A DNA stretch of 35,732 bases from an uncultured Lachnospiraceae bacterium. Its GTDB lineage: Bacteria > Bacillota > Clostridia > Lachnospirales > Lachnospiraceae. Below the pieces are notes generated by a model. That model did not search any database and was not told where the DNA came from. It saw nothing but the letters and a program-made list of their open reading frames with translations. Location of the stretch: the NCBI GenBank assembly GCA_902796425.1, contig CADBPC010000067.1, forward strand, positions 1 through 35,732. The letters are read 5' to 3'. The first letter of the stretch is position 1. Each line of letters starts with the position of its first letter. A program made the translations under genes and the position numbers. Positions 1 through 35,732 of this stretch are shown here, piece by piece.

Positions 1-2531
1 GCATCCAGATCCCACGCAGCATCCTGCTCCCACGCAGCATCCCGCACCGGAATCGCATCCTGCTCCTGCGCCGCGTCAAGAATAAGCTCTGCGCCCTCAA
101 GTCCGGGCGATGTGACGCGCACACAGATCCTGCCGCCTGCGTCGTCCGCGGCTATGATTGCAAGGAGCTTTCCCGAGAACAGTCTTTTCGACGTCCCCTT
201 TACGCTCTCGTAGTCCGTGCTGTCCCCGTTGTCGAGGCCGACAAGGTGCCCCGCGCCGCTCACTTCAACCGACACCCTGCTGCAGGCGTTTTCCACCGGG
301 GCGCCGTCCTCATCCACAGCCGAAATTGTGACAAAGAACAGCTTTGCTCCTGCTGCCTGACTGCCTGCTGCCCGGCTGCCCTCGTCCGCCTTCAGGACAA
401 TCCCTGCCGGATCCTTAAAGGAACGGATGCGCTCGGACGCGATGCAGTTTCCATCGCCGTCGTACCCCTTGGCGAGAAGCTCTCCCGACTCAAAGGCCAC
501 CCTGTAGTCCGCAATCAGATGCTTTCCGCTCCCCACCTTGTGCGTGAGCCTCTGTCTTCCGAGGCTCTTTCCGTTCAGGAAAAGCTCCGCCTCCACTGCG
601 TTGGAGGCGACCCGGATATCGATCATCTGCCCGGGGTTATGGTCCCAGTAAGGGAAAATATGGATCATGGGGTATTCGGCCGGATCCCTCCAGGCAGACT
701 GCCAGACATAATACGCGTCCTTCGGGAAGCCCGCGGTGTCGATCAGGCCGAAGAAGGAATTCCTCGAATGGTAGGGTGTCGGCTCGCCGAAATAGTCGGC
801 GCCGCTCCAGATAAACTGTCCCAGGGACCAGGGAATATCCCTGTCGATTGCAACGCAGTCCTCAAGACTCTGCGCGCCCCAGCTGGTCGGAGAATTGCCG
901 AGCGACGAGCACTGGCCGTCGTCCTCGCTCAGCTTCTTTTCCGAAAGAGGGAAATGATAGATTCCGCGGCTCTGTACGATCGAGGAGGTCTCACTCCCGA
1001 AAATCGCCCAGTCCGGGTGCTCTTCATGGTGCGCCGCATAATATTTTTCGCCGTAGTTATAGCCGACGAGCTTTAAAGAGTCCACGCACTTTCTCGTGTT
1101 TTCCCAGGGGAGCCAGTTGGAGCCGAGCGTTATGGCTGTATCCGACAGGGGATCGAACCTGCGCACGAGTTCGGTGAGGTGCTTCACAAGGTATGTCCCT
1201 CTCTCCGGATCCGCGTGGGTGTCGTAAATCTCATTCCCGATGCTCCAGAAAAGGAGCGAAACATGGTTCCTGTCCCTCTTTACCCACTGCTCCACATCGA
1301 AGGCATGCCACTTCGGGAAAAAGCGGGCATAGTCCCATGGCGTCTTCGGCCTTTCCCACATGTCGAAGGCTTCCGACATGACAAGAAAGCCCATTTCATC
1401 CGCAAGCTCCATAAACGCGGGCGCGGGAAGGGAATGGGCGCAGCGGAGCGCGTTGACCCCCATCTCCTTCAGGGTCTTAAGCTGCCTTTCAAGCGCCTGC
1501 CTGTGGAAGGCGCTTCCCAGCGCCCCCTGGTCATGATGAAGGCACACTCCCTGCAGCTTATAATGCCTCCCGTTAAGGAAAAGCCCCTCGTCCGGGGATA
1601 TTCTTATCTGCTTGAAGCCTGTGCGAATCCGCTCCTTTTCAAGAAGGACTTCCTCCCGGAAAAGGCAGACCTCGAGTGTATAGAGGCGGGGCTCCTCCGG
1701 GCTCCACAGATGCACGTCCGGACAGTCCAGATCTGCAGCAAATACAGCTGCGGCGTCGGCGTCGCCGGCCGCCTCTCCCGCGCCTTTGCCGCTCCCGGCG
1801 GCGCAGTCCTTCCCTTCCGCAAAGCCGCCTGGCTCCCTTCCGGCTTCCTTTTCGGCGATGAGCCGCTCCGCATCGTCATACAGGGCCGCCATAACGGTGC
1901 AGCCGTCCGGACAGACGCACTGCGCCTCGACGTGAAGGCGCCCGGAGGCCACATTCCCTGCAGGGCTTCCCGCCGCAGCTCCCGCCGGAACTCCCGCAGG
2001 AGATTCGGCCGCAGCTCCCGCTGTTTTCCCCTCCGCCTTTGTGACGACGTAGATTCCGTTCTCCGGAATATAGCTCCGGCCGGTAAAGCGGATCCACACA
2101 TCGCGGTTTATCCCGGCGCCCGAGTACCAGCGGCTGTTCGGCGCGCGGTGCCTTGCGCAGACGAGGATCTCGTTGTCCCCACCCGTCAGATAAGGCGTGA
2201 TATCAAGGGTAAATGTCGTATAGCCGCACGGACACTCCCCGGCCTTCTGCCGGTTGACGTAAACCGTGCTGTCCATGTAGATTCCTTCGAACGTAAGAAG
2301 GACGTGCCCGCCCTCATCAAGCAGGGCTTTCGCGCCGGGAACGCTGTCCGTGCGGAAGGTCTTTACATACCAGCCGCTCCCTTCCCGGTAGAGATCCCGC
2401 GAGTCGCCGATCAGCCAGTCGTGGGGTATGGGCACAGGAGAAAAGCGGGGGAGTAAAGCCGCCGCTTCATCTGCCCCCGCATCATATGACATCTCAAGAA
2501 AGCTCCAGTTGTCGTTAAATAAATATCTCAT
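1..2531 (-). CDS. Glycoside hydrolase family 2 enzyme (beta-galactosidase/beta-glucuronidase type), 3' end cut by window edge
   Basis: The reading frame starts at the ATG at 2531 and stays open to the left edge, so the C-terminus is missing. It shows the GH2 order: a sugar-binding jelly-roll domain (motifs IPHDWLIGD and NSRWYSGAGI), an immunoglobulin-like domain, then the catalytic barrel with GVCLHHD. The acid/base is probably Glu434 in FWSIGNEI and the nucleophile Glu514 in IFGSETSS; both are intact. Two Ala/Gly/Glu-rich simple-sequence stretches sit between domains, roughly residues 190-215 and 240-275, and the last visible part is made of DAAWEQDA-like repeats. No signal peptide is seen, so it probably acts in the cytoplasm on imported oligosaccharides. 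Its ATG overlaps the stop of the upstream GH67 frame by one base (TGATG), which suggests coupled translation. The substrate cannot be read from the sequence; the neighbours suggest a xylan- or uronic-acid-containing glycan. Confidence 0.9.
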   Translation of the reverse strand, partial: MRYLFNDNWSFLEMSYDAGADEAAALLPRFSPVPIPHDWLIGDSRDLYREGSGWYVKTFRTDSVPGAKALLDEGGHVLLTFEGIYMDSTVYVNRQKAGECPCGYTTFTLDITPYLTGGDNEILVCARHRAPNSRWYSGAGINRDVWIRFTGRSYIPENGIYVVTKAEGKTAGAAAESPAGVPAGAAAGSPAGNVASGRLHVEAQCVCPDGCTVMAALYDDAERLIAEKEAGREPGGFAEGKDCAAGSGKGAGEAAGDADAAAVFAADLDCPDVHLWSPEEPRLYTLEVCLFREEVLLEKERIRTGFKQIRISPDEGLFLNGRHYKLQGVCLHHDQGALGSAFHRQALERQLKTLKEMGVNALRCAHSLPAPAFMELADEMGFLVMSEAFDMWERPKTPWDYARFFPKWHAFDVEQWVKRDRNHVSLLFWSIGNEIYDTHADPERGTYLVKHLTELVRRFDPLSDTAITLGSNWLPWENTRKCVDSLKLVGYNYGEKYYAAHHEEHPDWAIFGSETSSIVQSRGIYHFPLSEKKLSEDDGQCSSLGNSPTSWGAQSLEDCVAIDRDIPWSLGQFIWSGADYFGEPTPYHSRNSFFGLIDTAGFPKDAYYVWQSAWRDPAEYPMIHIFPYWDHNPGQMIDIRVASNAVEAELFLNGKSLGRQRLTHKVGSGKHLIADYRVAFESGELLAKGYDGDGNCIASERIRSFKDPAGIVLKADEGSRAAGSQAAGAKLFFVTISAVDEDGAPVENACSRVSVEVSGAGHLVGLDNGDSTDYESVKGTSKRLFSGKLLAIIAADDAGGRICVRVTSPGLEGAELILDAAQEQDAIPVRDAAWEQDAAWDLD

Positions 2532-3064
2532 CAGAATATTTCTCTTCCGGCTTCGTCCGGAATTCCGCTTTTCCTGTAAAAATAGCTGTTTACCTGGTCT
2601 CTCCATTCAAAGGCGTTGATTCTCTGCCTTTCGAACCGGTCCTTAACCCGCAAAAAGACCTCTGCGTCCACTTCGCCTTCCATCTCATCCCAGGCCTTCT
2701 GCATGTCCAGCACAGCCTGCGCGCCCTCAAAGTGCGAATCGTAAATATGCTGGATCAGTGTCTTTCCCGAGGGCAGCAGGAAGGTGTAGGGAAGATGGTG
2801 GAAAAACAGCAGCAGCTCCTGCGGGCATTTCCCGGGATCATTATACATGGAAGCATTCGGTTCGTGGTACTGTCTTACGTAGCCGGTTCCCGAATCCGTC
2901 CTGTCGACGCCAAGCCCAAGGTGATCCGCACGGTGATAGGTTCCCCAGCGGGAATACTCGTACCCGTCAACCGAAGGCCCGTAGTGGAAGGCAGGATTTA
3001 CCATCCAGCCAATGCCGAGCGGCGCGGAGTATTTCTCATAGACTGCTCTCGACTCAAGAAGCAT
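2531..3064 (-). CDS. GH67 alpha-glucuronidase, C-terminal part (downstream of an in-frame TAG)
   Basis: This 177-residue frame is the C-terminal domain of a GH67 alpha-glucuronidase. It carries family-typical stretches near its start (YEKYSAPLGIGWMVNP, YGPSVDGYEYSRWG, TYHRADHLGLGVDRT). It is in the same frame as the 520-residue N-terminal part and separated from it only by one TAG codon at 3065-3067; its first ATG directly follows that stop. A possible ribosome binding site (TAAGG) lies nine bases before the ATG, so coupled re-initiation is conceivable. However, the Met also falls inside a helix conserved in the family, so the ATG may be coincidental. The domain has no catalytic carboxylates of its own; in the family it takes part in dimer formation and shapes the active site. 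It ends one base into the GH2 start codon. Confidence 0.85.
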   Translation of the reverse strand: MLLESRAVYEKYSAPLGIGWMVNPAFHYGPSVDGYEYSRWGTYHRADHLGLGVDRTDSGTGYVRQYHEPNASMYNDPGKCPQELLLFFHHLPYTFLLPSGKTLIQHIYDSHFEGAQAVLDMQKAWDEMEGEVDAEVFLRVKDRFERQRINAFEWRDQVNSYFYRKSGIPDEAGREIF

Positions 3065-4627
3065 CTAAAGGAGCCTTACGCTGTTCTTTTTGCCGAGCCG
3101 GAAGGTCAGTCCGATCCATTCCCTTGCGATCTGCTCCGTGCCAAGGCTGTTGTTAAAACACAGCCGCCCGAAGCCGTAGAGGTTTGCCGCCGCAAGGTCG
3201 TCCCCGGTCCAGCAGGCGTCATCGCCCGTGTTGCAGACCGCCGTCATGCCGCACATGCCGCTTTCCCTGTTTCCGAAGGTCCTGCCGCAGACGATATCGG
3301 ACACGGTGTCCTTCCCGTCCTTTGTGCAGTAGGTCTTAAAGGACAGCACCTCCTTGAACATCGGGATGAGATAGCAGAGGTCGATCTGCTGCCCGGTGTA
3401 TTCCTGCGCAATCTGGACCTCCAGCATCTGGTTTGTCCCGGTCATGCCGCCGATCAGGGGCGAGACGGGCTCCCTTATCTGGAAATCCATGGGGCCGTTC
3501 TTTATCTGGAGAATGACATTGTCGTCAAACTTCCCGTCGAGGTCAATGAAATTATCATAGCCTGCCCTTGCCCGGTCGGTCTTTTTATCCCTCCAGTCCT
3601 GGGTGCAGTTATAGACAAAGCAGCGCCAGAGGATGCATCCGCCGTGCGGCTTTACGCATCGCGCCAGCATATTGGCGCCATCCGCCTGCGTCCGTCCGTA
3701 GGTAAAGGGGCCGGGCCTTCCCTCCGAGTCCGCCTTTACAAGGAAGCCTCCGAGATACGGGACGGCCGCGTACAGCCGGTCCGTCGTCTCCTGCCACCAG
3801 GCGGCGACGCTCTCATCCAGAGGATCCGCGCAGGAAAGTCCCCCGATCTCCATGGGCGCCGCAAAATTGATGCTGATAAACAGCTTTATCCCGTAATCGG
3901 CGAAAATCCCGCCGACCCGGGCGAGGTCCTCATAATACCGCTCCGTTACAAGGCAGCTGGCGGCGTCCTTAACGTTGACGTTATTGATAACGACTGCGTT
4001 TATGCCGACACTGGAGACGATTCTCGCATAGTCCCTGATCCTGTCACTTCCGAGGAACTGGCTGTCCCTAAAGAAAAACGACCTACCGGAGTACCCTCTC
4101 TCAATGCTCCCGTCCATGTTGTCCCAGTGGTTTAACATGCGAAGCGGGGCGTCCGGCTCGAAAAGGCCGGCGGCTTCCTCCGGGTCACCGCAGAGCTGTG
4201 CGGAAAACAGGAGGCGGAAAATACCGTATAAAAGTCCGTTCTCATCCGGCGCCTCAAGGAAAATCACCGCGCCGCCCGCAGCGCTGTCCGCAGTGCTGTC
4301 TGCAGCGCCCGCGGGGCTTTCCGTCCTTACACGGTATCCCTGCGGGGCGATGTCCTTCTTCCTTTCGATGACAAGGCATGCGCCACGGGCCGACTGCACG
4401 CAGCTGACATCCGAAGCCGGCGCCGGAAGGATCTCCGGATCCTTCCCAGTCATGGAAAAGACGCCCCGTCTTAATTCCTCCAGGGCGCTTTTTACGATCC
4501 TGTTCTCCGGATCGAACCCGGATACGGAGACTCTAAGGAGTGCATTCCACGCCTTCGGAAGTCCTCCCTCCGGAGCTTTATACTGAAGCCACAGCTGTGT
4601 CCATTTCTTATTTTCGGGATTATTCAT
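3065..4627 (-). CDS. aguA: GH67 alpha-glucuronidase, N-terminal and catalytic part, ending at a premature amber codon
   Basis: GH67 enzymes remove (4-O-methyl-)glucuronic acid from the non-reducing end of short xylo-oligosaccharides (aldouronic acids), usually in the cytoplasm. The 520 residues contain the N-terminal domain and the catalytic barrel: MLNHWDNMDGSIERGY near 164-179, GGFLVKADSEGRPGP near 293-307, RTQADGANMLA, QDWRDKKTDRA, and NGPMDFQIREPVSPL near 378-391. The inverting base pair is probably Asp358 (GYDNF) and Glu386 (REP), 28 residues apart as in characterised members; the acid is Glu280 or Glu302. The frame stops at TAG (3065-3067) and resumes unshifted. The two parts plus one codon give 698 residues, close to the usual full length of about 690. 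Its start overlaps the stop of the upstream esterase gene by 8 bp. It could be a pseudogene, a split enzyme or a sequence error; the family assignment is secure. Confidence 0.9.
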   Translation of the reverse strand: MNNPENKKWTQLWLQYKAPEGGLPKAWNALLRVSVSGFDPENRIVKSALEELRRGVFSMTGKDPEILPAPASDVSCVQSARGACLVIERKKDIAPQGYRVRTESPAGAADSTADSAAGGAVIFLEAPDENGLLYGIFRLLFSAQLCGDPEEAAGLFEPDAPLRMLNHWDNMDGSIERGYSGRSFFFRDSQFLGSDRIRDYARIVSSVGINAVVINNVNVKDAASCLVTERYYEDLARVGGIFADYGIKLFISINFAAPMEIGGLSCADPLDESVAAWWQETTDRLYAAVPYLGGFLVKADSEGRPGPFTYGRTQADGANMLARCVKPHGGCILWRCFVYNCTQDWRDKKTDRARAGYDNFIDLDGKFDDNVILQIKNGPMDFQIREPVSPLIGGMTGTNQMLEVQIAQEYTGQQIDLCYLIPMFKEVLSFKTYCTKDGKDTVSDIVCGRTFGNRESGMCGMTAVCNTGDDACWTGDDLAAANLYGFGRLCFNNSLGTEQIAREWIGLTFRLGKKNSVRLL

Positions 4628-6641
4628 GGTCTTTTTCTTCTCCCCCCTCGACCGGCAAAATGAACGGGCTCATCGGAAGTCCATCGCTGTTAAAAATCAT
4701 ATTTACATGGTTTGTATCTGTAAACAGGTACCGGAGCTGCATAGGCAGGGGGTTCCCTACGCCCTCCCGGGGGCCCTCACTCGTAAACCACAGTCTGATT
4801 ATCCCGTCCTTTTCAAGGAGTTCTTCCTTTTCGGGATACAAAACTGTGCCGTCTTCCGTAAGCGCTTCAAATGCGGGCCGGAGTTCTCCCTCACTCCCGG
4901 GCTTCTCATACATTCCGGCGGCGTGGGTAAGGAAAAGATCAAGCACAAAGCCGTCCGCCCCCTGCCCGGCCTCCCGGCCAGGCTGCGCCTTCACGGGGAC
5001 CGGCCCGGTGTACTCGACGGGCATGCGGAGGTCCTTTGCCAGAACCAGCCGAGCGAGCCTCTCGCCGACAGGCTTTTTGGCAACGGGGTGAAGGTCGTTG
5101 TCCTCACCGGCGTCAAATGTTACGGCCATGCCGGTTCCGGGGATCTCAAGGAGACGCCTCTGCTTTTCGCGGAAGACAGGCCACTGCTCCGGGTCCGTCT
5201 GGTCGATGACAAAATTGGGGAGCTGGACATAATAATACGGAAGGTCCGGATCATTCCAAAGCTTCCTGTAGCCCGCGATCTGGCGCTTCGTGAGATCCAT
5301 GTAGTCCCAGGGCTCGTGCGTGTTCGACTCTCCCTGATACCACAGGACCGCTTCAATTACATAATTATGGCACGGCGCGGTCATCGCGTTATAGAGACCT
5401 GTCGCCTTCCAGTTGACAAAATCTGTCTCCGGCGCGGCCCCGCACGCTGCGCCGATCGTGTATTTCCACTCTCCGTCCAGGAAGACGGCCTTATTTTCCC
5501 CTGCGGCCTCCTCCGGCGTTACAAAGCGGGCGGGGAAAATTGCCATCGGCTTTCCGGGCGTGACCCGCCCGAGTCCCTGCTCCACGGTGAGCCTCACGGT
5601 CAGGATGTTCCTTCCGCTTTTAAGAAGGCTCCCCGGTACGGGATATTTTCTCGGGGGATACTGGTACTCCGTCCTCCCGACAGGGACTCCGTTGACATAG
5701 GCCTCATCCTTATCGACCATTGTGCCCAGCCAGAGCTTCCAGTCCGTGTCTTCGGGGCTTTCGCAGAGTTCTTTCTCTATATAAAAGTCTCTCTGCAGCC
5801 AGATACTCCCGGTAAAGCCCTTCAGCTCCGTATCCCTGAACATCACGGGCAGATGAATGGCTTTGTCCGCCGCCCCGTCCGGAAGGGGAAGGGGCGCAGT
5901 ATGGTACCGGTCCGCCTCGTCCAGCGCGCTCAGCCAGGTCTCCTGGTTCAAAAGGTTTCTCTGAACGACGCTGTCATAGAATTCCTTATCCGCGTAGCGG
6001 TCCGCCTCCGAGAGGAGCTCATCATATCCCTCCAGCATTTCCCGGCTCATCCAGCTCTCGATCCTCGAGCCGCCGAGCGTTGCGTTGATAAGGCCGACCG
6101 GCGTTCCCGTCTCCTTAAACAGCGCCTTCGCAAAAAAGAGCGCTGTCGCGGAAAACTGCGCGATGTCCGGCGCGGCAAGGCTCGTCCACTTCCCGGTCAG
6201 GCTCTCCTCAAGCGGTCCGTCATAAGACACCGCTTCGGTGATCTTAAAGGTCCGGATCAGCGGGTTTTCGATGCTCATCTCCTCAGGGTAGCGGTCCTTT
6301 ACGCGCTCCATCGGGAGCTCCATATTGGACTGCCCGGTGCAGAAGAACACACGCCCCGCAAGAACATCCTTTACCGTGCGGCTGTTTTCTCCGTCCGAAA
6401 ACGTAATCGTGTGACCGGCCCCCGCAGAGGGCGCCGGGATGCGGCAGTCGAACCGTCCGTCCTCCCCGGCCGTGCAGGATATACATTTCTCTCCGTCCAC
6501 AAGGACCGTTACGGCGGCGCCGGGCGCAGCCCACCCCCACAGGTGCGAAGGCCTGTCCATCTGCAGGATCATGCCGTCCGACAGGAGTCTGGGGAGCCTC
6601 AGCTGCGGCCCGTCTGCACTATGCAAATCTAGTTTATTCAT
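4620..6641 (-). CDS. SGNH-type carbohydrate acetylesterase (sialate O-acetylesterase / acetylxylan esterase family)
   Basis: This 673-residue protein removes O-acetyl groups from sugars. The SGNH-fold marks are visible: Ser105 in TGQSNMELPM (block I), an LWYQGESNT block near residue 430, and the Asp516-x-x-His518 pair in DNDLHPV. Between the blocks is an inserted jelly-roll domain (GSIWLQRDFYIE ... YVNGVPVGRTEY), as in sialate O-acetylesterase-like enzymes of polysaccharide utilization loci. There is no signal peptide, so it probably acts inside the cell. The start at 6641 has AAGGAAG seven bases upstream. It is the first gene of the minus-strand operon with GH67 and GH2, which argues for removal of acetyl groups from xylan-derived oligosaccharides rather than from sialic acid; this last point is inference from context. 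Confidence 0.87.
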   Translation of the reverse strand: MNKLDLHSADGPQLRLPRLLSDGMILQMDRPSHLWGWAAPGAAVTVLVDGEKCISCTAGEDGRFDCRIPAPSAGAGHTITFSDGENSRTVKDVLAGRVFFCTGQSNMELPMERVKDRYPEEMSIENPLIRTFKITEAVSYDGPLEESLTGKWTSLAAPDIAQFSATALFFAKALFKETGTPVGLINATLGGSRIESWMSREMLEGYDELLSEADRYADKEFYDSVVQRNLLNQETWLSALDEADRYHTAPLPLPDGAADKAIHLPVMFRDTELKGFTGSIWLQRDFYIEKELCESPEDTDWKLWLGTMVDKDEAYVNGVPVGRTEYQYPPRKYPVPGSLLKSGRNILTVRLTVEQGLGRVTPGKPMAIFPARFVTPEEAAGENKAVFLDGEWKYTIGAACGAAPETDFVNWKATGLYNAMTAPCHNYVIEAVLWYQGESNTHEPWDYMDLTKRQIAGYRKLWNDPDLPYYYVQLPNFVIDQTDPEQWPVFREKQRRLLEIPGTGMAVTFDAGEDNDLHPVAKKPVGERLARLVLAKDLRMPVEYTGPVPVKAQPGREAGQGADGFVLDLFLTHAAGMYEKPGSEGELRPAFEALTEDGTVLYPEKEELLEKDGIIRLWFTSEGPREGVGNPLPMQLRYLFTDTNHVNMIFNSDGLPMSPFILPVEGGEEKDHE

Positions 6642-8849: not shown

Positions 8850-10547
8850 ATGAAGAAAAAAGTATTAGCAGCAGTATTGGCGTCTGCGATGGTCGTATCA
8901 CTTGCGGCCTGCGCGGCACCGGCAGCGGCTCCCGCAGCATCCGGCGGCGGTGAGGCGGCAGCTCCCGCAGCATCCGGCGAAGCAGAGGCAGAGGCTCCCG
9001 CTTCCGAGCTTACGGATGGCAAGTTTGCTGAAACTCGTTCCATCACGGTCGAGGTTTATGACCGCGGAAACGACGGCGGTTCTGATCCCGAGAACAACGA
9101 CTACACAAGATGGATCCAGCAGCAGATGCTGGAGAAGCACAATGTCGAAGTCAAGTTCCAGAAGGTTCCCCGCTGGACAGAGGTTGATGATATCAACAAC
9201 CTCCTTGCAGCCGGCACAGCTCCCGATGTCTGCGTGACCTACTCCTATCCGACCGTACAGACCTATGCGGATATGGGCGGCGTTATCGACCTTGCTCCTT
9301 ATCTTGAGCAGTACAAGGATGAGCTTCCGAACCTGTGGAACTGGCTCGGTGAGACCAACCTTTACTGGGACAAGGATCCCGAGACCGGCAACGTATGGGC
9401 AGTTGAGGCAAAGCTTGCGAACATGAACCGCATCCTTACCTTCATCCGTCAGGACTGGCTGGATACCCTCGGACTGGAAGCTCCCACAACAAAGGAAGAA
9501 TTCCACGACGTTCTCGTTGCCTTCAAGGACAATGCGGATACTCTGCTCGGCGCAGATGCCGACAAGATGGTTCCTTACTCTGTCAGCTATGACGTAGGCT
9601 GGAGAGCAGGAACTCTCATCGAGTCCTTCCTTGATCCGGAAATGACCGATAAGGAATACTATATCAACGGCTTTGATGACAGAAAGCTCACCCAGAACGG
9701 CACAAAGGAAGCTGTCCGTCTCCTGAACCAGTGGTACAACGAAGGCCTGATGTGGAATGATTTCGCGATCTATTCCAGCGGCGACACCACAGAGGATGAC
9801 ATGATGAAGGCCGGCTATGTAGGCGCCTTCTCCCACAACTGGGACTATCCTTTCCGCAACGGCGAGGATTCCATCAATGCCAACCTGAAGAGACTGGTCG
9901 GACCGGAAGCGGGCTATGTCGCAATCGATCCGTTTGAAGACAAGAACGGCACACACACGAAGTGGCTTGCAGGCCCTGTCGACCGTAAGGTATTCTTCCC
10001 TTCGACAAACGATGAGCCTCTTGCATCCCTCCTGTATCTCGATTTCATCTCCGAGCCCGAGACCATCGAGTACCTGCAGATCGGTGAAGCAGGTGTCACA
10101 CATGAAGATGTTGAAGACGGCGCTGTATCCATCATTGCCGCAACCGGCGATGCGATCCAGAACTCCGGCATGAACATCGACTACACCATCACCTGCAACG
10201 GCCTGCACCTGACAACCGATGAAAAGACCGCGAAGAGCCTTGCATACACCTATGCAGGAATCGATCCCGCAGTCGTTCAGGCAGCGGATGCGATCGCAAA
10301 GACCGACACCCGTATCGGCGTCAACGTCCAGACAGGAAATATCGAGGCAGAAGCAGGAGTAGGCGATGTCCTCTCCAGCAAGAGAGACCAGATCTATGAC
10401 CTCGCAGTCAGCGCTTCCGTCGCAGATTTCGATTCCGTATGGGACAGCGGCATGAGCGATTATCTGTCCTCCGGCGGCCAGGCGATCATGGACGAGCGTG
10501 CTGCCGCATGGGAGAAGGTCTACGGCGATGCTGAGATGCTTCCCTGA
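8850..10547 (+). CDS. Extracellular sugar-binding lipoprotein (LplA/YtcQ type)
   Basis: The mature protein should be lipid-anchored outside the membrane and deliver an oligosaccharide to the two permeases encoded just upstream. The start ATG at 8850 is chosen because AGGAGG at 8838-8843 sits six bases before it; the ATG at 8844 touches the ribosome binding site. From 8850 the signal peptide reads MKKKVLAAVLASAMVV and ends in a lipobox with Cys21 (SLAACA). A low-complexity Ala/Pro/Gly/Glu linker follows to about residue 50. The rest (565 residues in all) has the large size and the pattern KFQKVPRWTEVDDINNLLAAG ... APDVCVTYSYPTVQ of LplA/YtcQ-type binding proteins. It ends the operon; a strong terminator follows. 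Confidence 0.9.
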   Translation: MKKKVLAAVLASAMVVSLAACAAPAAAPAASGGGEAAAPAASGEAEAEAPASELTDGKFAETRSITVEVYDRGNDGGSDPENNDYTRWIQQQMLEKHNVEVKFQKVPRWTEVDDINNLLAAGTAPDVCVTYSYPTVQTYADMGGVIDLAPYLEQYKDELPNLWNWLGETNLYWDKDPETGNVWAVEAKLANMNRILTFIRQDWLDTLGLEAPTTKEEFHDVLVAFKDNADTLLGADADKMVPYSVSYDVGWRAGTLIESFLDPEMTDKEYYINGFDDRKLTQNGTKEAVRLLNQWYNEGLMWNDFAIYSSGDTTEDDMMKAGYVGAFSHNWDYPFRNGEDSINANLKRLVGPEAGYVAIDPFEDKNGTHTKWLAGPVDRKVFFPSTNDEPLASLLYLDFISEPETIEYLQIGEAGVTHEDVEDGAVSIIAATGDAIQNSGMNIDYTITCNGLHLTTDEKTAKSLAYTYAGIDPAVVQAADAIAKTDTRIGVNVQTGNIEAEAGVGDVLSSKRDQIYDLAVSASVADFDSVWDSGMSDYLSSGGQAIMDERAAAWEKVYGDAEMLP

Positions 10548-10703: not shown

Positions 10704-11060
10704 ATGTTCAAATACTATATTCCCGACTGCTTCTGGCCTGTAAAGGACCAGGGCGATTATGTCAGTCACGAAGCCGTCTGTGTCCTTAACACAAACGAAA
10801 CAGAGGTCACTGTGACCCTGACCCTCTATTTCGAGGACCGCGACAAGATTGACGGCATCAAGGTCAGCGTTGGCGCGGAAAGAACAAACCACATCCGTCT
10901 TGATCACCTGACACTGGACGGCCAGCCGCTGATCCCCCGCGGCGTGCCCTATGCAATCGTCGTATCCTGCGACAAAGAAATCACTGTTCAGTATACCCGC
11001 GTCGACACCACACAGCCGGCGCTGACCATAGCCACTACCATCGCCGGAGTACAGAAATGA
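10704..11060 (+). CDS. ASRT-family protein (sensory rhodopsin transducer-like small beta protein)
   Basis: This 118-residue soluble protein matches the family of the Anabaena sensory rhodopsin transducer: SHEAVCVLNTNETEVTVTLTLYFED near residues 21-45, RTNHIRLDHL, IPRGVPYAIVV, and the C-terminal QYTRVDTTQPALTIATTIAG. The cyanobacterial member relays a light signal from a rhodopsin, but most members occur in organisms without rhodopsin, and comparative work has proposed a small-molecule (possibly sugar) binding role. AGGAGG at 10693-10698 supports the start. Its stop overlaps the start of the response-regulator gene (ATGA, 10057+1000 region at 11057-11060), so the two should be translated together. 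The order after a sugar importer and before a PhoB/PhoR-like pair suggests a sensing or modulating role in that signalling pathway; this is inference. Confidence 0.85.
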   Translation: MFKYYIPDCFWPVKDQGDYVSHEAVCVLNTNETEVTVTLTLYFEDRDKIDGIKVSVGAERTNHIRLDHLTLDGQPLIPRGVPYAIVVSCDKEITVQYTRVDTTQPALTIATTIAGVQK

Positions 11061-16561: not shown

Positions 16562-17605
16562 CTATCCGCGCGCAAAGACATGCAGGAGGAAGCTGTCCGC
16601 GAGGATAATCCAGGTTTCAAAGTTCGGATATTTCACATATCCGTCCACCAGCCTTCGTCCCGCCATGCCGTGAGGCACTCCCGAGAAGGTATGCACCTCA
16701 CAGTAGATCCCGTGCGAGACCAGTTCGGGATACAGGGCCTGGATATTTTCCAGATTGAAGTCCTCCATGCCCACTGCGTGGAAGGTCGGCGGATAGACGA
16801 CTCCTTCATAATCGAATACGGCATCGTGCATGCGCGGCCCGTAAATGCAAAGAAATGCGTTCATGTCCGCAGACACGTCATCCAGGGCATCCGGCGTGTA
16901 TCCGGGGAACACATCCTTCATCGTCTTATTCCCCGAGTAATACCGGATGCACCCTTCGCCGGTAAGACCGCCGTTTGAAAAGCCGGCATAGGCGATATTA
17001 TCCTCGCGGATACGATATTTCTCCGCATTTGCGCGGATGATACGGATCGCCCTTGCAGCGTCCGCTCCCGCCTCTTTGTCCGTCCAGGGATTGAGGTTCG
17101 GCCGGTTTAGCAGAAGGAAGCATTGGTATCCTCTTTCAAGAAAATCCAGCGCAGACTGATATGCCTCGCACAGGACCGGAAATCCGTGATCACCTCCTGC
17201 GCAGAACAGGATCGCTCCCTTCGGAGTTACACTCTCATCAAGAAGCATCTCGTACATGAACGGCTCAAAATCGGGATTATGGTTGTACAGATACTCGCTG
17301 TTATCCGTATACTCCGTGAGCGTCGGGATCTCCCCGTTCCACAAAAAGATTTTCCCGGCAGGCCTCTTTTTTGCCTCGATTTCCTCTCTCTTTTTCTTAA
17401 AGGCGGGAAGGAGTGAGCGCATCTCCTCTTCGGTCGTGCAGGACTCAATCTTCTCCGTCATCCTTGTAAGCTCTGCAAGGTCCTCTATGGGATAGGACAG
17501 ACATTCGTCAAAGAGAGGGACGGCTGCGAGGTTTTCCTCCCCGAAAATGCTGCGCACCCAGCGCCCGTGCTCTCTCATCTTTTTAAACAGCTCTTTCATG
17601 TCCAT
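16562..17605 (-). CDS. Alpha/beta-hydrolase, probable carbohydrate or acyl esterase
   Basis: This 347-residue protein has an N-terminal helical extension of about 85 residues and then an alpha/beta-hydrolase domain. The nucleophile elbow is GFSNGG (Ser210) and the catalytic His is probably His312 (GVPHGMAG); the acid is likely in GMEDFN (281-283). The oxyanion region is ILFCAGGDHGF near 132-142. No signal peptide is seen. AAAGGAG eleven bases before the ATG supports the start. It is the last gene of the seven-gene minus-strand operon with an ABC importer, two type-B carboxylesterases and an MFS carrier, which suggests removal of ester decorations from imported compounds. I cannot assign a named family or substrate. 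Confidence 0.8.
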   Translation of the reverse strand: MDMKELFKKMREHGRWVRSIFGEENLAAVPLFDECLSYPIEDLAELTRMTEKIESCTTEEEMRSLLPAFKKKREEIEAKKRPAGKIFLWNGEIPTLTEYTDNSEYLYNHNPDFEPFMYEMLLDESVTPKGAILFCAGGDHGFPVLCEAYQSALDFLERGYQCFLLLNRPNLNPWTDKEAGADAARAIRIIRANAEKYRIREDNIAYAGFSNGGLTGEGCIRYYSGNKTMKDVFPGYTPDALDDVSADMNAFLCIYGPRMHDAVFDYEGVVYPPTFHAVGMEDFNLENIQALYPELVSHGIYCEVHTFSGVPHGMAGRRLVDGYVKYPNFETWIILADSFLLHVFARG

Positions 17606-34394: not shown

Positions 34395-35210
34395 TCAGTT
34401 CAGGAATCCGCTGGCAGAGCTTGAGTTGAAATCTCCGTGCGTTGTACTGGATACGATCTGATATTCCCCGTCCGCATCAAAGGTATACAGGTCGCTCACA
34501 CTGTAATGTCCTGACGGGCCGAACGCCTGGCTGTCAGAGATCCAGGCTGTGCCTTCCGCTGTCTTCAGCACATATTTTCCTGCAGGGAAGCTCTTGGTGA
34601 CAGTCTGTCCGGGTGTCAGGAATACTATGAACTCCACACTTCCGTCAGTTCTGACGAGCCGGTAGCAGGCGGACAGGCTGTCTGCCTTCAGCGTCAGCTT
34701 CGATGTGCCCGGACCGTACCCCGGAAGGGGAGCTGCCGGCTTGGGAGCTGCGGGAGCGGCGGGGGCGGCAGCGGCAGGAGCTGCCGCGGTTTTGCCGGTG
34801 GCGGCGGCTGCATAAGGAAGCCTTCCTTCCGCCATTCCATGCTCTTTGTAGTGCTGGTACAGGAGCTTTTCATTATTTCCGAATACTGCAGCGACATCCG
34901 GATAAGTTTTGAAGTAAAATGCGGGGTCAAACAGAGCGCCGTCCGGCATGACCTTCGCGCCTGCGGCGATTGCAGCCGCGGTTGCCGCGGAATAAGGAAG
35001 TCTTCCTTCCGCTTTGCCGTGGCGCACATAGTGTCCGTACAACTCCTTCTCGCCTGTCCCGAAAACAGCGGCAGCGTCCGGATAGGTCGCAGCATAGAAT
35101 GCCGCGTCAAATATTCCTCCGTCCGGCATCGCCTTCGGTGCAGCGAAAACGGTCGTTCCAAATAACAGCACCATAATCACGATCAGCATAAGAGAGATTG
35201 TTTTCTTCAT
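34395..35210 (-). CDS. Secreted protein with two 60-residue repeats and a small C-terminal domain
   Basis: The 271-residue protein has a signal peptide (MKKTISLMLIVIMVLLFGTTVFA, cleavage after about residue 24) with no lipobox. Two repeats follow, residues 28-73 and 88-133, with an exact 60-residue period: MPDGxxFDxAFYxxTYPDxAAVFG and the end HYxxHGxAEGRLPY. This repeat type occurs in Clostridia surface proteins. An Ala/Pro-rich linker (about 136-165) leads to a C-terminal domain of about 100 residues (LTLKADSLSACYRLVRTDGSVEFIVFLTPGQ ... ), whose function I do not recognise. GGAGG six bases before the ATG supports the start. A single gene with its own terminator. A surface or matrix role is plausible, but not shown. 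Confidence 0.8.
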   Translation of the reverse strand: MKKTISLMLIVIMVLLFGTTVFAAPKAMPDGGIFDAAFYAATYPDAAAVFGTGEKELYGHYVRHGKAEGRLPYSAATAAAIAAGAKVMPDGALFDPAFYFKTYPDVAAVFGNNEKLLYQHYKEHGMAEGRLPYAAAATGKTAAAPAAAAPAAPAAPKPAAPLPGYGPGTSKLTLKADSLSACYRLVRTDGSVEFIVFLTPGQTVTKSFPAGKYVLKTAEGTAWISDSQAFGPSGHYSVSDLYTFDADGEYQIVSSTTHGDFNSSSASGFLN

Positions 35211-35324: not shown

Positions 35325-35454
35325 TGCACTGTGATTCCGTTCCCTCATCCGATATAATTATCTGCGGCGCTTGTTATTCCTGCCGTTTTCTTTGGAATAA
35401 CAGTTTTATATCACCGGAAATACAGCGGGAAAAAAGCAGAAAGGAAAGGTAAAT

Positions 35455-35732
35455 ATGGGATTTTCCAGGGATTTTCTCTGGGGCGCAGCTTCCGCGGCGC
35501 ACCAGGTAGAAGGTGCATATAATGAGGACGGAAAGGGCCTCGGGATCTGGGATGCTCTGACACAAGAGCCCGGGCATGTCGCCCATGGTGAGAACGGAAA
35601 TGTGTCCTGCGATCACTATCACCATATGAAGGAAGACGTTGCCCTGATGAAGGAGCTGGGGCTTAAGAGCTATCGGTTCTCTGTGAGCTGGCCGAGGGTC
35701 ATGCCCGAAGGCACAGGCAGGGTCAACGAAAA
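35455..35732 (+). CDS. GH1 beta-glucosidase, 5' part only (cut by the window edge)
   Basis: The 92 visible residues are the N-terminus of a family 1 glycosidase: FSRDFLWGAASAAHQVEGAYNEDGKG (the substrate-binding Gln and His region), GLGIWDALTQEPGHV, and YHHMKEDVALMKELGLKSYRFSVSWPRVMPEG. The pattern resembles beta-glucosidase rather than 6-phospho-beta-glucosidase, but the active-site Glu residues lie beyond the edge. AAGGAAAGG five bases before the ATG at 35455 supports the start. The candidate CRE upstream suggests repression by preferred sugars. Confidence 0.92.
   Translation, partial: MGFSRDFLWGAASAAHQVEGAYNEDGKGLGIWDALTQEPGHVAHGENGNVSCDHYHHMKEDVALMKELGLKSYRFSVSWPRVMPEGTGRVNE

Follow-up and report, generated by a model that had tools for sequence, protein, structure and literature searches.

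An isolated in-frame TAG in a GH67 alpha-glucuronidase gene of an uncultured Lachnospiraceae bacterium, most probably a recent nonsense allele or an erroneous consensus base

Introduction

Does a single stop codon inside a conserved glycoside hydrolase gene mark a special way of making the enzyme, or is it one damaged codon in a gene that is otherwise sound? The question is raised by a GH67 alpha-glucuronidase gene from an uncultured Lachnospiraceae bacterium (GenBank assembly GCA_902796425.1), located on contig CADBPC010000067.1 (C67 in our numbering), whose 35,732 nucleotides were analysed as a whole and are called the window here. The assembly comprises 3.08 Mb in 224 contigs and is 92.55% complete and 4.56% contaminated. 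We compared the gene with its relatives, the stop codon with the decoding apparatus of the genome, and the locus with other interrupted genes in the same assembly.

Results and discussion

The interrupted gene and its operon

The GH67 frame lies on the minus strand and, according to the sequence and the list of open reading frames, consists of 520 + 1 + 177 codons with one in-frame TAG (3067-3065), directly followed in the same frame by an ATG (3064-3062; Table 1). When read through the TAG it yields 698 residues with a single X at position 521, and aligns with the solved GH67 structure 1k9d over residues 43-698 (E 4e-226). An earlier note on this DNA had described a single TAG, with an adjoining ATG, splitting an otherwise complete GH67 of normal length; the ORFs at 3065-4627 and 2531-3064 are indeed in phase, and that description is confirmed. 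The GH67 middle domain (PF07488) spans residues 157-473 (E 1e-143; 478.7 bits, above cut-off), and the C-terminal domain (PF07477) also exceeds its cut-off with the TAG read through (300.6 bits), while the N-terminal family PF03648 reaches just 19.8 bits, under its cut-off. In PF07477, a profile of 223 positions, the match upstream of the TAG ends at position 40, and the part downstream matches positions 49-222 (E 7.8e-73). The gene therefore carries the middle and C-terminal domains expected of GH67, but not an uninterrupted frame. Residues E302, D381 and E409 (positions counted by hand) align with E285, D364 and E392 of 1k9d and are invariant in two alignments, A1 (6 sequences) and A2 (26 sequences). 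We take these to be the catalytic carboxylates of GH67; all three lie upstream of the TAG, where the earlier note had placed them.

Table 1. Features of the GH67 locus in the window, and isolated in-frame stops elsewhere in the same assembly (G000)
Feature	Location	Strand	Stop	Remarks
Downstream GH2 glycosidase	3..2531	-		PF02836, PF02837 and others; frame runs off window start
Remaining GH67 C-terminal domain	2531..3064	-	TGA (2533-2531)	177 codons, ATG to TGA
In-frame TAG, codon 521	3065..3067	-	TAG	Sequence and ORF list; variable alignment column in 88 relatives
520-aa ORF including stop	3065-4627	-	TAG	
GH67 N-terminal region, catalytic middle domain and C-terminal-domain positions 1-40	3068..4627	-		520 codons
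Upstream esterase gene, SASA domain	4620..6641	-		PF03629, E 5.9e-21; 8-base overlap with GH67 start
GH67 (genome scan)			TAG	Family match across stop
mutS, domain V	L148:4031-6706 (G000:C52), stop at 4531	-	TAG	
GH28 rhamnogalacturonidase-like	L167:13378-14766 (C24)	-	TAG	NCBIfam 585 bits across stop, cut-off 650; Pfam match stops short
M19 dipeptidase			TGA	Family match across stop
PEP synthase-like	L147 (G000:C24:1-20000) 3-2225	-	TGA	
Membrane-protein frame	L145:15213-16892 (G000:C117)	-	TAG	Stop in hydrophobic stretch; no Pfam or NCBIfam match

Both operon junctions around the gene are of the overlapping stop-start type, with the likely GH2 start overlapping the GH67 stop at a TGATG downstream and the esterase overlap upstream. 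In the same-genus genome G015, the GH67 frame at L003:1495-3669 (minus strand, contig C59) extends upstream, within an open frame of 1357 aa, into what by eye resembles an esterase end, and perhaps encodes one fusion protein, where the window instead has two genes. Elsewhere in the window, a protein with an Anabaena-sensory-rhodopsin-transducer (ASRT) domain is encoded at 10704-11060 on the plus strand, directly preceding a PhoB/PhoR-like two-component pair and a Na/Pi cotransporter.

Comparison with GH67 relatives

Comparisons were made with 88 distinct relatives, consisting of the best 80 of 579 named loci and 8 from other genomes, with L130 and L131, which repeat L003 and L004, excluded. 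Among the matches listed, from which records of this genome or its nearest kin may be missing, the best named GH67 relatives came mostly from Lachnospiraceae metagenome-assembled genomes, at ~60% identity. None of the 88 has a stop within the aligned GH67 stretch and none is split, and no relatives were found in viral contigs. Column 521 holds 14 residue types across these relatives (D 19, R 10, G 10, K 10, E 8, Y 6, S 5, N 5, T 4, Q 3, A 3, F 3, P 1, C 1), and of the 676 columns no more than 6.2% equal or surpass it in entropy. In five orthologues from the same genus the codon reads CAG (twice), AAG, ACG and GAC, making the earlier suggestion of a lost CAG or AAG plausible, at a site too variable for proof. 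The position after column 521 is isoleucine in 44 of the 88 relatives and methionine in 33, so that an ATG there represents a normal family residue and not a new start.

Constraint along the gene was assessed at 146 near-invariant positions, defined as those where at least 97% of the other sequences agree. The window GH67 deviates at none of them (0/100 before the TAG, 0/46 after), but the median relative itself deviates at only ~1 of the 146, so the test is a weak one that shows just the lack of visible decay. On sequence comparison, such a result would fit a young mutation, a base error or a working gene alike and does not separate them.

Genetic code and tRNAs

The earlier note had regarded TAG as an ordinary stop here and genome-wide recoding as unlikely, and both views hold up: the three TAG stops that it cited are real, TAG makes up 5 of the 24 terminal stops listed in the window and, in the part of the genome sampled, terminates 70 of 613 long ORFs, and release factor 1 (RF1) is present (505.9 bits against a cut-off of 423.25). 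TAG is thus neither rare nor absent at ORF ends, and RF1 has not been lost, as recoding would lead one to expect; a weak suppressor could nevertheless coexist with both. The best match to PylS, in an assembly 92.55% complete, reached 24.3 bits, far under the cut-off of 178.15. ARAGORN named 29 of 31 tRNA matches in the assembly, and none of the 29 has a CTA anticodon, in a tRNA set that is itself incomplete (lacking, for example, tRNAs for Met, Ile, Asp, Phe and Tyr). Two tRNAs cut by contig ends were read by eye, one as tRNA-Lys(TTT) (L034) and the other with GGA in the anticodon loop (C162:1-76). A pattern search for CTA tRNAs allowing up to three mismatches returned 72 matches, against 45 in the backward control, with no CTA tRNA among them by eye.

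Other interrupted genes in the genome

The GH67 TAG does not stand alone in this genome, where other frames too are interrupted by a single stop. Scanning 965,140 bases (31% of the genome) for coding potential, by a design that misses interruptions with a weak coding signal or in genes without a known family, turned up 58 candidates (46 in 756 kb and 12 in 209 kb), of which 32 were checked against Pfam. In five genes, GH67 included, a domain or family match spans a single stop (Table 1); a further nine candidates of another scan yielded none with a domain across the stop. In relatives the interrupted residue is Y (10) or H (20) in mutS (in 30 of the 58 matching relatives), W in 8/8 for GH28, C in the single relative for M19 and W in 2/2 for the PEP synthase-like gene. 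If these relatives show the old codon, the Trp codons would point to transitions, and Tyr in mutS and Cys in M19 to transversions.

Together with the membrane-protein frame, the isolated stops observed are four TAG, two TGA and no TAA. One-step mutation from the codons of this genome predicts 50-58% TAG, 22% TGA and 20-28% TAA, and the mix fits random point mutation; an excess of TAG among the interruptions was considered and rejected, four of six being no over-representation against that expectation. Suppression of TAG by insertion of Gln as a common cause was rejected in view of the residues replaced (Y/H, W, C and W).

In two same-genus controls none of the checked candidates had a domain match across the stop, either in G015 (348 kb; 10 candidates, all 10 checked, 3 without any family) or in G069 (400 kb; 19 candidates, 10 checked, 3 without any family). 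Raw candidate densities per Mb were 60 in the genome studied here, 29 in G015 and 48 in G069, and under equal rates the chance of all five interrupted genes falling in the former is 0.057, making the excess over the controls suggestive only. A genome search had counted one stop in six of eight GH28 relatives and a TAA in the mutS relative G073. On realignment, no GH28 relative has a stop at the site and a single stop is left, at residue 454 of 463 (L254), which places the other counted stops in terminal parts that the realignment did not span; G073 mutS is stop-free over residues 7-890.

Contig C24 has three damaged-looking genes: the PEP synthase-like and GH28 rhamnogalacturonidase-like genes of Table 1 (TGA and TAG, respectively) and a GPH-type symporter (L147, G000:C24:1-20000, 9420-10415, plus strand) that matches its profiles at both sides but not in their middle part. 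The TAG in mutS, if real, would suggest a population deficient in mismatch repair, and such a deficiency could in turn account for an accumulation of point mutations. In a coarse frame-switch scan, raw candidates lacking a start signal numbered 79 in 965 kb and, in a same-genus control, 25 in 348 kb, with no clear excess; a mutator is neither supported nor excluded by it.

Explaining the interrupted frame

The reading that best accounts for these observations, and one in which we have considerable confidence, is that the GH67 gene is sound apart from this one codon, which reflects either an isolated nonsense allele of recent origin or an incorrect base in the consensus; a true allele and an assembly base error are about equally likely. 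A single random base change would have converted a sense codon, in all likelihood CAG or AAG, to TAG, whether in the population that was sampled or through an incorrect call in the assembly consensus. The TAG would then act as a normal stop and give a protein of 520 residues, with the catalytic residues kept, most of the C-terminal domain lost and probably no activity, and special decoding would play no part. Three points temper this account. The site of codon 521 is unusually tolerant, as functional read-through or a split would require; constraint past the TAG is also expected under continued function; and the ATG adjoining the TAG is suggestive, although isoleucine or methionine is usual there. 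Among the four options of the earlier note, a nonsense allele in the population and a sequence error are nonetheless, taken together, by far the likeliest.

Leaky or programmed suppression, in which a tRNA would read TAG as sense often enough to supply full-length enzyme, was another of those options and has lost ground, and we now consider it improbable. The conservation of both halves and the 14 residues accepted at site 521 are what it would predict, most of the isolated stops are TAG (4/6), and a suppressor could be missing from the incomplete tRNA set. Set against these are the presence of RF1, the lack of a CTA tRNA among the 31 matches or the pattern matches, and a TAG share in line with the prediction from random mutation. 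TGA interruptions occur as well, and the interruptions are confined neither to one stop codon nor to positions of one residue, so no single suppressor explains them all.

The remaining option, re-initiation, envisages a stop at the TAG, a restart at the adjoining ATG and assembly of two chains into a split enzyme, with translation continuing to the overlapping GH2 gene. A restart at TAGATG is physically possible given the overlapping stop-start junctions of the operon, and a TAAGG does end nine bases upstream of the ATG, as earlier noted, its AAGG being a four-base Shine-Dalgarno-like match. Among internal ATGs in long ORFs (n = 4245), however, 13.9% have a match of at least four bases in the same distance range (3.3% of at least five), and the re-initiation signal is accordingly weak and near chance level, with nothing in the sequence to indicate selection. 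In a structure model built with Gln at 521 and 26 sequences (mean pLDDT 84.9; 95 for residues 511-520 and 93 for 521-530), codon 521 falls inside a confidently predicted helix (513-534), within the Pfam C-terminal domain and not in a linker or at a domain border. A break at such a predicted site speaks against a built-in split, even if the halves might still reassemble. With an ATG that is the usual family Met codon and no split gene among the 88 relatives, the split enzyme appears slightly less probable still than suppression, and has lost ground likewise. A literature search found no title on split GH67 or split alpha-glucuronidase genes, or on suppression in Clostridia.

Taken jointly, the two mechanisms would have TAGATG serve as a working re-initiation site that maintains coupling along the operon and yields GH67 as two chains, associated by way of the interrupted helix, or have full-length enzyme provided by a weak amber suppressor that the assembly does not contain; so combined, they gain a little in probability over either one and are still unlikely. 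That the gene is a long-standing pseudogene within a decaying locus, for which the damaged-looking genes of contig C24 in the same assembly might speak, is very hard to credit given an unblemished set of near-invariant sites and family matches for most scanned genes in the window (with none for 34398-35210 or the open-ended 35374-35730, and a weak, partial one for 16565-17605).

Conclusion

The premature stop in GH67 looks like an ordinary point mutation or assembly error, and the locus looks to involve no new reading of the code and no new way of assembling an enzyme. The more interesting facts lie outside GH67 itself, in that this genome has several codons of this kind, including one in mutS. 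The case serves mainly as a caution: when a draft assembly shows a single stop within a frame, the whole genome should be surveyed before any special mechanism is put forward.

Compared with known systems, the gene resembles the GH67 alpha-glucuronidases of PDB entries 1k9d and 1gqi in its alignment (to 1k9d over residues 43-698) and in retaining the presumed catalytic carboxylates, and differs from them by one TAG at codon 521, where the aligned stretch is stop-free in 88 of 88 relatives. With bacterial stop codon reassignment it shares a stop in the frame of a conserved gene. All known bacterial code changes, as stated in a 2021 paper (PMC8629427), reassign UGA, whereas the codon here is TAG, a frequent normal stop in a genome with RF1. 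There is also a likeness to pseudogenes and isolated nonsense alleles that carry stops within the frame, in the single-base origin, the mixed stop types and the Trp codons hit twice; in contrast to these, GH67 is otherwise an intact gene, and, provided that the relatives show the old codon, the changes at Tyr in mutS and Cys in M19 would be transversions.
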